Shown in pieces: positions 39,893-44,679 of a stretch of 64,000 nucleotides of DNA (the stretch's first letter is position 1; each line of letters starts with the position of its first letter). This DNA comes from an uncultured Pelagibacteraceae bacterium (GTDB taxonomy: Bacteria > Pseudomonadota > Alphaproteobacteria > Pelagibacterales > Pelagibacteraceae): assembly GCA_902592715.1 (NCBI GenBank), contig CACJFS010000004.1:1-64000 (forward strand), in the 5' to 3' direction. The notes beneath the pieces were generated by a model, which did no database searches, had not been told where the DNA came from, and saw only the letters and a list, made by a program, of their open reading frames with translations. A program made the translations under genes and the position numbers.

Positions 39893-41154
39893 TTTAATCT
39901 TAAAATTTCTCCAGCAAGATATAGCGAACCTATACAGAGAATAATAGTATTTTCATTTTTTGATAACGATTTTATACTTTCTTCAATGCCATTAGAAAGT
40001 TTCAAATTTAATTTTAAATTAACTAACTTTTTTCTAAAATCTTCCTTTGAAATTGCACCATCTTGATTAGGAATATCAATTAAAGTAATTGAATCTACTA
40101 TATTTACAAAAGCTTTTATAAATTCTTCATGTTCTTTATCTTTCATCATGCCCACGATTAGATTTACTTCTTCATTTTGATTTTTAATCCAATTAGCGAT
40201 AGAATAACTTGCGCTAATATTGTGACCACCATCAATTATAAGTTTGTTATTCCCAGTAATTTCTTTTAATTTGCCAGATTTTATTTCTTCAAGTCTTGCT
40301 TTTAATGAAATATTTTTGATACCATCTATAATATTTTCATCTTTAATATTAAAAATCTTTCTTGATGCAGCAATTGAGGTACTAATATTATAAAGCTGAT
40401 GATCCCCAAGAATACTTGGTTCAGGTAATACTAATTCCCCTAACCGATCTTGATATTGAATAAATCCATTCTCGGACTTTCCAATACTAAAATCTTTACC
40501 AAAAAAATATTTATTTGATGTATTTTTTTCCAACGATTTTTCTATTTTATATCTTATTTCATTATTTACTTGTTTATTAATAAATATATTTGAGTTTAAA
40601 AGTTTAGCTGTTTTTTCATATATTACCCCTTCAATTGATTTATTTTCAAGCCATTGAAAGTGATCATTATGAATGACACCAATGAGTGTAATTAAATTTT
40701 CCTTAAATACATTTGTACTATCAAATTGATGAAATAGTCCGGCCTCTACAATATTTATATTATCCTTATAATTTTCAGCATGTTTAATAAATGCACATGT
40801 TAAAATTTCAAATAATGTTGCATTGTCATCTCCTAAAGTTTTTTCAATATCAGTCAGTAATTCTATTAAATCTTCTTCATTGATTTCCTTATCTTCAAAA
40901 ATATATCTTTCTGTATAAGAGAGTAGGTGAGGTGAAGTATAAAGATTAGTTTTGTATCCAGCTTGATTTAGTATTGACTTAAGGCTATAGCACATGCTTG
41001 CTTTAGCATTGGTTCCGACTACTGTTATAACATTTTTCAATTTATCTTGAGGATTTCCAAGCTTTTTTAAAAGATTAAAAGTTCTTCCCAGAGATAAATC
41101 TAATTTTTTTTTATGATGCTTCTCTAGTTTGGATATTATTTTCTGAAGTTTCAT
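39889..41154 (-). CDS. folC: folylpolyglutamate/dihydrofolate synthase, atypical P-loop
   Basis: FolC adds glutamate to folates (and in some forms makes dihydrofolate). The 421-residue Mur-ligase-fold protein has N-terminal LDLSLGR, the FEILTCAF stretch, an HNDHFQWL segment and the C-terminal IDGGHNISAS motif. The P-loop reads GTNAKAS (residues 47-53) instead of GTNGKGS, so both Gly around Lys are Ala; EVGLGGRxDATN is replaced by EAGLFHQFDSTN. It overlaps accD by 44 bases, but the N-terminal motif supports this start. Confidence 0.85.
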   Translation of the reverse strand: MKLQKIISKLEKHHKKKLDLSLGRTFNLLKKLGNPQDKLKNVITVVGTNAKASMCYSLKSILNQAGYKTNLYTSPHLLSYTERYIFEDKEINEEDLIELLTDIEKTLGDDNATLFEILTCAFIKHAENYKDNINIVEAGLFHQFDSTNVFKENLITLIGVIHNDHFQWLENKSIEGVIYEKTAKLLNSNIFINKQVNNEIRYKIEKSLEKNTSNKYFFGKDFSIGKSENGFIQYQDRLGELVLPEPSILGDHQLYNISTSIAASRKIFNIKDENIIDGIKNISLKARLEEIKSGKLKEITGNNKLIIDGGHNISASYSIANWIKNQNEEVNLIVGMMKDKEHEEFIKAFVNIVDSITLIDIPNQDGAISKEDFRKKLVNLKLNLKLSNGIEESIKSLSKNENTIILCIGSLYLAGEILRLN

Positions 41155-42040
41155 TTAAATTTTCTAAATGTATATCAGAATTTTTTCTAAGTAATATCGA
41201 TAGAAGGTTACCAACTTCTTTTTGTATATCTTTTCTATGTACCACTCTGTCGACAAAACCATGTTTCTCAACAAATTCAGCTGTTTGAAAATCGGAACTT
41301 AATTCTTCTTTAACAGTCGCTTGAATTACTCTTTTTCCCGCAAAAGCTATTAGGCACCCAGGTTCTGCCAGATGAATATCCCCTAACATTGCAAAAGAGG
41401 CAGTTATTCCACCAGCTGTAGGATCCGTAAAGCATACTATGTAAGGTAAATTATTATTTTTAAGTTCGTTTATTGCAAGTGTTGTTCTGGTCATATTTGC
41501 TAAAGCAATTGTAGACTCGAACATTCTTTGTCCCCCACCACATGGAAAGAACAAATAAGGTGTTTGGTTGTCTATTGCGTGTTGTACGCCATAAATTATT
41601 GCCTCCCCTTCAGCGGCACCGACTGATCCTCCAATAAAATCAAAATTTATTGCACCTGCTGTTACTTCTATTCCATTTATTTTCCCTTTTGCAATCATAA
41701 CTGCACAATTTTGGTTTGTCTTTTTCCTCGCAATCTTAAGTCTTTCTTTGTAAGATTTTGTGTCAACCCAATTTAATGGATCTTCTGTAGGTATAGGTGA
41801 CTCTAAAATTTGGTATGTATTTTTACCGAATATTATATCAAACCTTTGTCTACAACCAATTCTATGATGTTTTCCACAAAGATTACAAACCCATAAATTA
41901 TTCTCTAAATCTTTCTTTAATATTGGACCTTTGCAGCAACTGGTCCAATCTGAATTAGCTATATCCTCTTTCGAAGGTCTTTTTCGAAGTACCTTCTTTA
42001 TTTTTTCACCAAAATTTATAGCTTTTGTTAACCAATTCAT
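41111..42040 (-). CDS. accD: acetyl-CoA carboxylase carboxyltransferase subunit beta
   Basis: AccD with AccA transfers carboxyl to acetyl-CoA to make malonyl-CoA. The 309-residue protein has the crotonase-fold core (GGSVGAAEGEAI, FPCGGGQRMFE, TDPTAGGITASFAMLGD, FAGKRVIQATV). The N-terminal zinc ribbon is altered: the first Cys pair reads WTSCCKG, adjacent, and the second reads VCNLCG, so the usual C-x2-C is missing in the first half. It overlaps trpA by four bases and folC by 44. Confidence 0.95.
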   Translation of the reverse strand: MNWLTKAINFGEKIKKVLRKRPSKEDIANSDWTSCCKGPILKKDLENNLWVCNLCGKHHRIGCRQRFDIIFGKNTYQILESPIPTEDPLNWVDTKSYKERLKIARKKTNQNCAVMIAKGKINGIEVTAGAINFDFIGGSVGAAEGEAIIYGVQHAIDNQTPYLFFPCGGGQRMFESTIALANMTRTTLAINELKNNNLPYIVCFTDPTAGGITASFAMLGDIHLAEPGCLIAFAGKRVIQATVKEELSSDFQTAEFVEKHGFVDRVVHRKDIQKEVGNLLSILLRKNSDIHLENLNETSENNIQTREAS

Positions 42041-42837
42041 GATATTTTTTTTCTTAGTTTACTAACTATATTACTTACATTTATGACAGGATTTTGTCTA
42101 TTGTTTAAACTTCTAGTAATTTCTTTACAAATTTGACTTCCAACGACAAGTCCATCTGCATTTTTAAAATTTGATATAGTCTTTTCAGTTATCCCAAAAC
42201 CAATAACACAATTTTTTTTGGGACTTATTTTTTTAATTTTATTGTAATTAGCTAATATTTTTTTTGGAGAAACTTTTAGCTTTCCTCCAGTAGTAGATAA
42301 CATACTTATATAATAAATCATATCATGAGAATCTTTTGTAATACTTTTCAATCTTTTATTTGATGTTGTAGGAGATAATAATTGGATAAAATTAATTGAA
42401 TTTTTTTTACATTTCTTCGAAAAATTTTTATTTTCTGGCCATGGTAAATCAACAACAATTAAACCATTAACACCTGATTTTTTACATTTTTTTAAAAAAT
42501 TATTTTCACCATATTGGAAAATCATATTGTAATAACCCATAAATATTATGGGTTTTGAATTTTTACTTTTTTTAAAATCACTGACAATTTTAAAAATATG
42601 ATTCATCTTAATGCCATTTTTTATTGCTCTATAAGCACTAGTTTGAATTTGACCTCCATCTGCAACAGGGGTGTTATGGGGTACACCAACTTCTAAAATA
42701 TCTGCATAATTGGAAATTGCTTTTAGGATCTCTAAAGACTGCTTTTTTGAGCTATCACCAGCTACAGTATAAGTAATTAAAGCAGGTCTTTTTTCTTTTT
42801 TTAAGTTTTTAAAAGTAAGACTAATTGGATTTAACAT
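42037..42837 (-). CDS. trpA: tryptophan synthase alpha subunit, divergent at the beta interface
   Basis: TrpA cleaves indole-glycerol phosphate. The 266-residue TIM barrel keeps the catalytic residues at the same numbers as Salmonella: E49 in ILEVGVP and D60 in PVADGG. The intervening FSDP is HNTP, so D56, which forms a salt bridge to K167 of TrpB, is Thr. The loop 6 region reads MLSTTGGK against SRSGVTGA, keeping Thr183. MGYYNMIFQYG, DLPWPE and GFGIT are recognisable. It overlaps trpB by 17 bases and accD by four. Confidence 0.9.
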   Translation of the reverse strand: MLNPISLTFKNLKKEKRPALITYTVAGDSSKKQSLEILKAISNYADILEVGVPHNTPVADGGQIQTSAYRAIKNGIKMNHIFKIVSDFKKSKNSKPIIFMGYYNMIFQYGENNFLKKCKKSGVNGLIVVDLPWPENKNFSKKCKKNSINFIQLLSPTTSNKRLKSITKDSHDMIYYISMLSTTGGKLKVSPKKILANYNKIKKISPKKNCVIGFGITEKTISNFKNADGLVVGSQICKEITRSLNNRQNPVINVSNIVSKLRKKIS

Positions 42838-44065
42838 ATTTCTTTCCCAACTTTTTTTCTAAAATTCCACGGTCTTTATATGCATCTCCACAACTATTAA
42901 TAATTACTATTGTATTTTTACTCAATTTTTTTGCTTCTTTGATTGCTACTGAGAACGCATGACTTGGTTCGAGAGATGGTCTTAAATTTTCATATTTTGT
43001 AACTATCTGGTAGGCTTTTAAAGCTTCTTCATCGCTAGCTGCTGTATACCTTGCACGTTTGGTATCTTTTAAAAAGCAATGGAGAGGTGAAATTCCGGGA
43101 TAATCAAGACCTGCGGATATTGACTCAGTTTCTTCAATTTGACCATCGCTATTTTGATTTACATATTGTGCTGCACCATGAAGTATACCGATTTTGGAAC
43201 CATAAGTTAAAGGAGCTGCGTGTTTTTTACTATTGGCAGGCCCTCCCGCTTCAACCCCAATGAACTCAACTTGTTTTTTATCATAATCCATAAATTCATT
43301 CCAAAAACCAAAACTTGAAGAACCTCCTCCCACACAATTATATAATTTGAGTTTTTTAGGAATATCTCCAAATTCATCCATTAATTGAACTTTAAGTTCT
43401 CTAGATATTTGACTAGTACTCCATCCACATATTCTAACAAAAATTGCAGGTCCTACTGTACTACCAACACACATTGCTGTTGTATCACAATTAGCAACCC
43501 AATATCTCATACACTCTGATACAGCATCTACTAGTGTTTGACTTCCGGAATATACAGGAATTATATCTGCCCCATTTTTTTTCATTGCTTTAACATTTGG
43601 TTGCTGTCTCGCAATATCTTTTGCACCCATAAAGATTTTACATTTCAAACCAAATTTTTTTGCTGCCATACTCAACATCTTTCCAGCATAACCAGCTCCT
43701 GTGTCACCAATAATTACTTTTTTGCCAGACCTTTTGGCCAATAAACAATGAACAGTGGCGTTATATATTTTATGAGCCCCTCCATTTGCATCAGAAACAA
43801 CCTTGGACCAAATCTGAGCTCCACCAACGTGTTTTGTTAAATTTTTTAGTTTAATGAATCTTGTGGGTGTTCCAATCCAATTTTTAAAATACTTGTCTCT
43901 TTCTTTTATAAAGTTTTTGTTATTTTTTAATTTATTAAATTGTATTTCAAGATCTTCTATAGGCTTCTTAAGTGTTTCTGGCACAAAATTTCCACCAAAT
44001 TTTCCACCCCAGAAGCCAAGTTTATCTCCCTGATCTATTAGTGGAATTTTTTTTTTGAGTTTCAT
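42821..44065 (-). CDS. trpB: tryptophan synthase beta subunit, atypical active site
   Basis: The PLP enzyme that joins indole and serine, 414 residues. The PLP lysine is K99 in GGAHKIYN. Aligned to Salmonella TrpB by motif, catalytic E109 is D121 in DTGAG, Q114-H115 are Y126-A127, K167 is V179 and S377, which binds the PLP ring nitrogen, is C392; GGGSNA is GGGSSS. R141, D305 and E350 equivalents remain (IARQ, SDEEAL, LEPSHA) and SAGLDYPG is intact. The fold and operon place say TrpB. The activity may be altered or tuned. It overlaps trpF by four bases. Confidence 0.85.
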   Translation of the reverse strand: MKLKKKIPLIDQGDKLGFWGGKFGGNFVPETLKKPIEDLEIQFNKLKNNKNFIKERDKYFKNWIGTPTRFIKLKNLTKHVGGAQIWSKVVSDANGGAHKIYNATVHCLLAKRSGKKVIIGDTGAGYAGKMLSMAAKKFGLKCKIFMGAKDIARQQPNVKAMKKNGADIIPVYSGSQTLVDAVSECMRYWVANCDTTAMCVGSTVGPAIFVRICGWSTSQISRELKVQLMDEFGDIPKKLKLYNCVGGGSSSFGFWNEFMDYDKKQVEFIGVEAGGPANSKKHAAPLTYGSKIGILHGAAQYVNQNSDGQIEETESISAGLDYPGISPLHCFLKDTKRARYTAASDEEALKAYQIVTKYENLRPSLEPSHAFSVAIKEAKKLSKNTIVIINSCGDAYKDRGILEKKLGKKYVKSN

Positions 44066-44679
44066 TTTAATATAGACAAATTTAATAATTTATTAATTTT
44101 TTCAATATCTTTTTTACCTTTTTCATTTTCTAATGCACCGCTAAGATCAATAAAATAATCTTTATTTGTAAAATTAGAAATATCTTCTATTTTTATATTT
44201 CCAGCAATCATTTTATTCACTGAATTAGGTACAGAATTTAAAAACTCGTGGTTAAAGCCAATTGATTTTTCATAGCCTTTTCCATCAAAAAGTATTAAAT
44301 CTGAAATTTTTTGATAATCTTTATATATATCAACATCTTTTTGACTGTTAATTGTTAAAGCTGTAATAACTTTAACATTGTACTTTTCTTTTATTATTTT
44401 TGTTCTTTCAGGATTTACATCATAAAGTTGATAAAAATCAAAATTTAAACCTTTGATTTTTTCTAAAATTTTATCATCCGGATCGACAAGAACAGACACG
44501 AAACTGCTTACATTATTTTTTGTATTTACTAATTTTTTTAGCTTCTCATATTCAACATACCTTCTACTTTCTTTATAATTGGTAATAAAACCAATAAATT
44601 TTGGAGGAAATTTATGATTTAAAATATAATTTAAAGTCTCAAGATCAGAGACCCCACAAATTTTCAAACCCTTAATCAT
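44062..44679 (-). CDS. trpF: phosphoribosylanthranilate isomerase, divergent
   Basis: TrpF performs an Amadori rearrangement in tryptophan synthesis. The 205-residue barrel has the catalytic Cys in LKICGV and Asp in LILFDGKG. Other family signatures are altered: SPR is SRR (KESRRYV), QLHG is QLYD, and the end SSGVE is LSGALE while the KGKKD tail motif is kept. It lies between pyrF (one-base overlap) and trpB (four-base overlap). Confidence comes mostly from its place in trpF-trpB-trpA. Confidence 0.85.
   Translation of the reverse strand: MIKGLKICGVSDLETLNYILNHKFPPKFIGFITNYKESRRYVEYEKLKKLVNTKNNVSSFVSVLVDPDDKILEKIKGLNFDFYQLYDVNPERTKIIKEKYNVKVITALTINSQKDVDIYKDYQKISDLILFDGKGYEKSIGFNHEFLNSVPNSVNKMIAGNIKIEDISNFTNKDYFIDLSGALENEKGKKDIEKINKLLNLSILK

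Follow-up and report, generated by a model that had tools for sequence, protein, structure and literature searches.

The trpF-trpB-trpA locus

The window, meaning the whole 64,000-nucleotide stretch at positions 1 to 64,000 of contig CACJFS010000004.1 (assembly GCA_902592715.1, an uncultured Pelagibacteraceae bacterium), comes from a SAR11 genome in which a single trpF-trpB-trpA cluster was found. TrpB and TrpA, the beta and alpha chains of tryptophan synthase, lack both residues of the alpha Asp56-beta Lys167 salt bridge in this genome. Sequence comparison suggests that they probably make up a working tryptophan synthase of the TrpB1 type, with no other found in the genome, whose extensive remodelling took place on the stem of a clade present in most SAR11. 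The genes of the cluster and its downstream neighbor are:

42821..44065, minus strand: trpB, tryptophan synthase beta chain, SAR11 divergent class, 414 amino acids, open frame; TIGR00263, 383.1 bits
42037..42837, minus strand: trpA, tryptophan synthase alpha chain, 266 amino acids; TIGR00262, 209.7 bits (cut-off 102.35)
44062..44679, minus strand: trpF, directly upstream of trpB; PF00697, 76.0 bits (cut-off 22.7)
41111..42040, minus strand: accD, directly downstream of trpA; TIGR00515, 273.7 bits (under the cut-off of 317.45)

The minus-strand order, read from the open reading frames of the window, is rpsA, ihfB, pyrF, trpF, trpB, trpA, accD, and folC. Neighboring genes overlap at trpF/trpB, trpB/trpA (17 bases), and trpA/accD. 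The names rpsA, ihfB, and folC are presumed and agree with the gene order in Kagan 2008; the other genes of the cluster region were named by family searches. The window TrpA is also above the PF00290 cut-off. The top-scoring model for the window TrpB is the fused TrpF-TrpB NF010376 (392.2 bits, cut-off 819). TIGR01415, the TrpB_2/TrpB-like family of the same pyridoxal phosphate (PLP) enzyme superfamily, gives 96.6 bits, below its cut-off of 518.85.

The source genome is 1.08 Mb in 42 contigs and is 78.5% complete. Of 581 matching contigs in a named collection, the best 80 are all Pelagibacteraceae or Pelagibacterales. No second trpA/trpB pair was found, although a further copy may lie in the missing part of the genome: there is a single TrpA match, and besides trpB itself there is a 55-residue match at E 0.065. 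The relative G275 (99% complete, single contig) has one TrpB match at both E<=1e-40 and E<=1e-30. trpE, trpD, and trpC are grouped on contig C15 of the source genome.

Residue changes in TrpB and TrpA

Window TrpA and TrpB were aligned to E. coli MG1655 TrpA (268 amino acids) and TrpB (397 amino acids). The numbering of the Salmonella enzyme is taken to be that of E. coli. The ordinary set contains 86 rows, made up of E. coli and Pseudomonadota loci, including one ordinary enzyme from the SAR11 order (L155, which recurs as L259 and was counted once). The residue set of the divergent class contains 15 rows, one of them partial.

A sequence-only reading of the window had claimed that both partners of the salt bridge are lost, with Thr at alpha56 and Val179 at the beta Lys167 position, while alpha Glu49 and Asp60 remain. 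The alignment bears this out, and all of the assigned positions are equivalent. Window TrpA has E49, T56, and D60. Window TrpB has K99 (=K87), D121 (=E109), Y126 (=Q114), A127 (=H115), R153 (=R141), V179 (=K167), D321 (=D305), E366 (=E350), and C392 (=S377), so that the proposed replacements of Glu109 and Gln114-His115 are confirmed, as is retention of the PLP lysine and the Arg141, Asp305, and Glu350 equivalents. Further changes are R148A, H195A, P196I, P198V, N236S, R379D, and D381Y in TrpB and F54H and G181S in TrpA. The codons of the principal positions are:

42670..42672, minus strand: TrpA Thr56; ordinary rows Asp 83/86, Glu 3/86
43529..43531, minus strand: TrpB Val179 (K167 position); ordinary rows Lys 85/86, Arg 1/86
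43703..43705, minus strand: TrpB Asp121 (E109 position); Glu in 86/86 ordinary rows, Asp in 14/14 readable divergent rows
43685..43690, minus strand: TrpB Tyr126-Ala127 (Q114-H115 positions)
43769..43771, minus strand: TrpB Lys99, the PLP lysine (K87); kept in every readable row
42884..42886, minus strand: TrpB Asp394 (R379 position); ordinary rows Arg 86/86
42295..42297, minus strand: TrpA Ser181 (loop alpha-L6); ordinary rows Gly 86/86

Cys392 had also been listed as unusual. This residue is not odd because Cys is common at position 377 of ordinary enzymes (Cys 49/86, Ser 37/86).

Several of the changes concern the end of the beta site where indole and substrate lie. No readable row of the divergent class keeps the usual residue at 109, 114, or 115 (E109D, Q114Y/M, H115A/F), and position 148 is changed in 13/14, with position 145 kept. 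The change at 114 is not unique, as Gln114 is replaced by Met in 3/86 ordinary rows. In the parts of the literature consulted, Glu109 is described as stabilizing charge on the indole nitrogen, the indole sub-site as bounded by His115 and Phe306, and Gln114 as bonded to Asn145 and Arg148 in the closed state (PMC9512447). No tryptophan synthase paper describing E109D was found in the open-licence literature searched.

Extent of the remodelling and the retained core

The salt bridge is one of many sites that changed. Measured against the 86 ordinary rows, every readable divergent row has lost the conserved residue at 21 of 102 near-invariant positions in TrpB, among them 109, 115, 167, 173, 186, 196, 198, 201, 204, 209, 236, 379, and 381. 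In TrpA, 3 of 23 such positions are lost (172, 181, and 207). L155, the ordinary enzyme from the SAR11 order, has lost 0/102 and 0/23.

The catalytic core is retained. The TrpB residues kept in all readable divergent rows include H86, K87, T110-G113, R141, N145, R175, S235, D305, and E350, and the phosphate loop GGGS is kept as well. TrpA retains E49, T183, and G184, among others, in all readable divergent rows and D60 in 14/15; E49 is present in 112/112 rows of the wider set described below. The presence of beta R141, D305, and R175 and alpha T183 is a statement about residues rather than geometry. The window enzyme therefore resembles the TrpB_1/TrpA enzyme of E. coli and Salmonella in gene pairing, family, PLP lysine, GGGS, R141, D305, and E350, and in E49 and D60 of TrpA. 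It differs by E109D, Q114Y, H115A, K167V, N236S, R379D, and D381Y in TrpB and by D56T and G181S in TrpA, and the residues of the alpha D56-beta K167 contact of the Salmonella-type allosteric complex are absent.

The alpha56/beta167 pair

Among 112 TrpA-TrpB pairs, the two positions are acid/base in 92 (D/K 83, E/K 7, D/R 1, and E/R 1, alpha56 first), neutral or hydrophobic in 19 (A/V 8, T/L 5, T/V 3, and C/V 3), and gapped in 1, with no mixed pair. Three of 114 loci (L197, L205, and L249) are without TrpA. A second set of 189 mostly SAR11 rows has T/V in 134, D/K in 29, A/V in 10, E/K in 7, C/V in 3, T/L in 2, E/R in 2, and gaps in 2; some genomes appear in it twice, and the window locus is included as L001, its other entry L002 (the window itself) being excluded. 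Several loci share one genome (e.g., L146/L053 and L151/L256), and the rows are thus not all independent. The earlier statement that both halves changed together holds in that the change is fixed across the clade and the pairs are never mixed.

The number of events behind this pattern is small. A tree of joined TrpB and TrpA, from which the alpha56 and beta167 columns were omitted, places the divergent class as a clade on a long stem. Parsimony on this tree requires two changes in each subunit, one on the stem leading to the divergent class (1.83 changes per column, support 100/100) and one on that of a second SAR11 class, the L150 class (2.74, 100/100). The approximately unbiased (AU) test does not reject a tree that joins the two classes as one clade (p 0.554), and the constrained tree scores 4.07 log units above the unconstrained one. 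Given this AU result, separate co-loss in each of the two lineages is not claimed. The tree offers 1-2 pairs for an independent-pairs test, which is too small a number. The association is therefore perfect, but one or two events lie behind it, and one common origin is not rejected.

On stems of this length, the loss of both members of one particular pair is in itself unremarkable; it is expected at roughly 3% for a given alpha/beta pair on the divergent stem (the product of 21/102 and 3/23). The salt bridge cannot be singled out because the same long branch changed about one-fifth of the near-invariant TrpB positions. The rewired or retuned complex proposed from the sequence fits these data, but as part of a burst of change across the whole enzyme. 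Comparison of the sequences supports a remodelled enzyme; it does not show a specific rewiring of one bridge.

Distribution in SAR11

TrpB was found at E<=1e-30 in 274/297 genomes drawn from the SAR11 order. By E-value, approximately 258 of the 274 carry the divergent class (the weakest at 9.1e-104) and 16 carry other classes; these counts were made by eye from the E-value table, with sequences read for a subset. In 241 alphaproteobacterial genomes, TrpB identity of at least 75% to the window occurs only in its own genome and two SAR11 relatives, and the other listed matches are at or below 46%. Identity to the listed TrpBs outside SAR11 is 38-46%, and to E. coli TrpB it is 38%. No relative of the divergent or L150 TrpB was found in two pattern scans of viral contigs.

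A distinct SAR11 trpB_1 cluster has been reported from the Sargasso Sea metagenome, and the one trpB of Pelagibacter ubique HTCC1062 is placed in a distinct trpB_1 cluster, with the same gene order (Kagan et al. 2008, PMC2395257). In the portion of that work consulted, the cluster is argued to function because P. ubique has a single trpB, and there is no residue-level analysis, TrpA comparison, or division into classes within SAR11 (PMC2395257). It was the only paper on SAR11 tryptophan synthase found in the open-licence literature searched, which leaves out most subscription papers and makes this a weak absence. The distinct SAR11 group has thus been known since 2008, and no description of these residue changes was found in the same literature.

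Among 150 SAR11 genomes with a completeness of 90% or more, seven yield no TrpB match at E<=1e-30; these may be tryptophan auxotrophs or reflect assembly gaps. In G060 (C11:12457-13694), trpB appears as two overlapping matches with stops, and in G046 (C10:1152-1904), the trpC match has four in-frame TAA codons; each is a possible pseudogene or sequencing error.

Other SAR11 classes and replacement of the pair

The locus order is common to SAR11, but further TrpB/TrpA classes are present, in which 21 to 32 of the 102 near-invariant TrpB positions are lost in all rows of a class. The L150 class occurs in G017, G059, G554, and G666 (the 297-genome search listed three of the four, without G017). 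It has T/L at alpha56/beta167 and Lys at 141, with D305 kept. The L146 class, which includes the single-contig genome G012, has E/K or E/R at alpha56/beta167, a replaced D305, Glu at alpha60, and Lys at 175. L156 joins the L146 class in the tree (100/99). The classes have thus broken partly different conserved parts of the enzyme.

Two of these replacements were also observed as follows. At TrpA position 60, where Asp is catalytic, L146-L149 and L154 have Glu, as do 5/86 ordinary rows. D305 is Gln, Asn, or Thr in L146-L149 and L156, the last of which has Leu at 141; alpha56/beta167 is still acid/base in these loci.

Close relatives can differ in class. Identity between G017 and the window is 70% for rpsA, 69% for pyrF, 56% for trpF, 31% for trpB, 33% for trpA, and 62% for accD. 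A pyrF+accD tree, which holds the 34 of 37 chosen loci with both genes long enough, joins G009 (divergent class) and G017 (L150 class) as sisters (SH-like approximate likelihood ratio test, SH-aLRT, 100, by a quick method). The flanks of the replaced trpB-trpA unit (L020 698-2709 against L150 2864-4918) are 85% and 93% identical in DNA, and the BLAST matches stop within 10 bases of the trpB start and the trpA end. A second pair, G006 and G041 (L146 class), has SH-aLRT 94 and flanks of 82% and 90% (L032 against L147). Here the match ends inside trpF, which is itself 59% identical. For the L150 class, no donor was found in 385 alphaproteobacterial genomes, where the matches at E<=1e-76 are TrpBs with 35-39% identity.

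By best match to class references, the alpha class equals the beta class in 251/251 rows, some genomes being present twice: 149 divergent, 88 ordinary, 7 L146, 5 L150, and 2 L156. The trpBA pairs are replaced together, which suggests that the partners are not freely interchangeable. A speculative and rather unlikely extension is that trpB-trpA is a multi-allelic matched cassette, with at least three mutually alien remodelled classes swapping as pairs at one locus between close relatives, which could mean diversifying selection on an essential biosynthetic enzyme, e.g., by inhibitors or antimetabolites acting at the alpha-beta interface.

Other genes of the locus are also highly divergent in some SAR11 loci: accD in L148, L149, L152, L167, L257, and L258 (34-44% identity to the window) and folC in L148 and L149 (28% and 26%). 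The trpBA-accD-folC stretch may thus form a hot spot of replacement in SAR11.

Function, proposed mechanism, and alternative explanations

The divergent genes are under strong purifying selection. Between the window and L066, the nonsynonymous (dN) and synonymous (dS) divergences are 0.020 and 0.702 for trpB and 0.026 and 0.373 for trpA, and dN is far below dS in nine locus comparisons, some possibly of one genome. HTCC1062 has been cultivated in an artificial seawater medium containing glycine, glycine betaine, pyruvate, dimethylsulfoniopropionate, and vitamins (PMC5069961), and its growth without named tryptophan is indirect evidence for a working SAR11 tryptophan synthase. Purifying selection, the presence of trpC, trpD, and trpE, and the HTCC1062 literature together suggest that the enzyme works in vivo.

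Judged by its residues, the enzyme would have a reshaped indole end and retuned closure. Indole-3-glycerol phosphate would be lysed, and indole and serine condensed, by the usual chemistry. Asp at 109 would do the job of Glu109 from a reshaped pocket, and the alpha-L2/beta-H6 contact would be neutral or hydrophobic packing in place of the salt bridge. Closure would lean on the remaining alpha T183-alpha D60, beta R175, and beta R141-beta D305. With the salt bridge replaced and closure left to these residues, alpha-beta coupling would be retuned or weaker. The other divergent SAR11 TrpBA classes (L150 and L146) may point the same way. In studies of ordinary enzymes, changes at alpha Asp56 or Pro57 reduce activity in the complex, and alpha Asp56 contacts the beta Lys167 equivalent in the mycobacterial enzyme, with a main-chain variant in Streptococcus pneumoniae (sections of PMC6608616).

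Several points weigh against this reading. The score of the window TrpB against TIGR00263 (E 1.4e-114) is 9 bits under the curated cut-off of 392.45. AccD, used as a control, has lost 7/49 near-invariant positions in the window (66 ordinary AccD rows) and from 2/49 (L155 and L156) up to 16/49 (L149) in other SAR11 loci, compared with 32/104 for the window TrpB by the same count (84 ordinary rows); part of the divergence is therefore general, because AccD of the same genome has lost near-invariant positions too. None of these interface contacts is seen in the Francisella tularensis structure, as described in part of PMC6608616, which means that even ordinary enzymes do not always show the salt bridge. 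AlphaFold gave an unusable model of TrpB, with a mean predicted local distance difference test score (pLDDT) of 44.2 and a predicted template modeling score (pTM) of 0.44, from 28 sequences of which the others were 90-96% identical to the window. It is outside the salt and metal table that the section on HTCC1062 medium names no tryptophan (PMC5069961). Finally, the Kagan trpB cluster is tentatively equated with the divergent class on the grounds of gene order and abundance.

An uncoupled enzyme is an unlikely alternative: TrpB would have good activity of its own, the alpha2beta2 complex would be weak or would not form, and indole would diffuse or be only weakly channelled. The charge is gone at both alpha56 and beta167, and alpha G181 is replaced. 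Moreover, 3/6 of the 'Res6' residues tied to stand-alone TrpB activity (described in part of PMC11917138) are present in the window (T68, S202, and A298), by a position mapping with an inferred offset of two; the other three, found in stand-alone TrpBs such as LBCA-TrpB and plTrpB, are absent. However, ordinary rows also have Thr at the third of these positions (14/86) and Ser at the fourth (6/86), and beta R175 and alpha T183 are kept. The trpB/trpA overlap and the class match throughout the 251 rows argue that the partners still seem to matter.

It is highly unlikely that the enzyme uses another amino acid or nucleophile instead of or besides serine and indole, a shift that the sequence-only reading had raised. 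E109D, Q114Y, and H115A do affect the sub-sites for indole and carboxylate (by the roles given in the portion of PMC9512447 consulted), and SAR11 is said to be without canonical serine/glycine synthesis genes (part of PMC6775983). Beyond the changed pocket residues the idea has little support: this is the sole TrpB found, its gene belongs to a trp cluster, the genome also carries trpC, trpD, and trpE at another place, T110-G113, K87, E350, and D305 are kept, and the HTCC1062 medium description names no tryptophan.

There is a very slim chance that the salt bridge alone was exchanged for a hydrophobic pair by paired mutation, apart from the burst. The lack of any mixed pair, the retention of acid/base character elsewhere as E/K, D/R, or E/R, and published general TrpA-TrpB coevolution (part of PMC4755613) would fit such a swap, but there were one or two events only, and with 21/102 TrpB and 3/23 TrpA positions falling on the stem, joint loss is not rare. 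Ongoing decay in a reduced genome is hardly credible: many near-invariant positions are lost, a few near-complete SAR11 genomes are without TrpB, and the trpB of some relatives, e.g., G060, has in-frame stops or a split frame, but over 100 rows, some of which share a genome, carry identical substitutions, dN is far lower than dS, and the window trpB frame is open.

Implications for tryptophan synthase in SAR11

The trpB-trpA pair of the window represents a real, fixed, and unusual tryptophan synthase variant in SAR11, in which the salt-bridge change is part of a larger rebuild and a shift of substrate is unlikely. Tryptophan synthase is a standard model for substrate channelling and allostery. 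All 86 ordinary rows have Glu109 and an acid/base alpha56/beta167 pair, and a common SAR11 enzyme under purifying selection is without both. The SAR11 enzyme is thus a ready test of which contacts tryptophan synthase needs. In addition, the joint replacement of both genes at a single locus suggests that alpha needs a matching beta. The SAR11 classes permit chimeras, with alpha and beta from different classes, for direct probing of the partner code.

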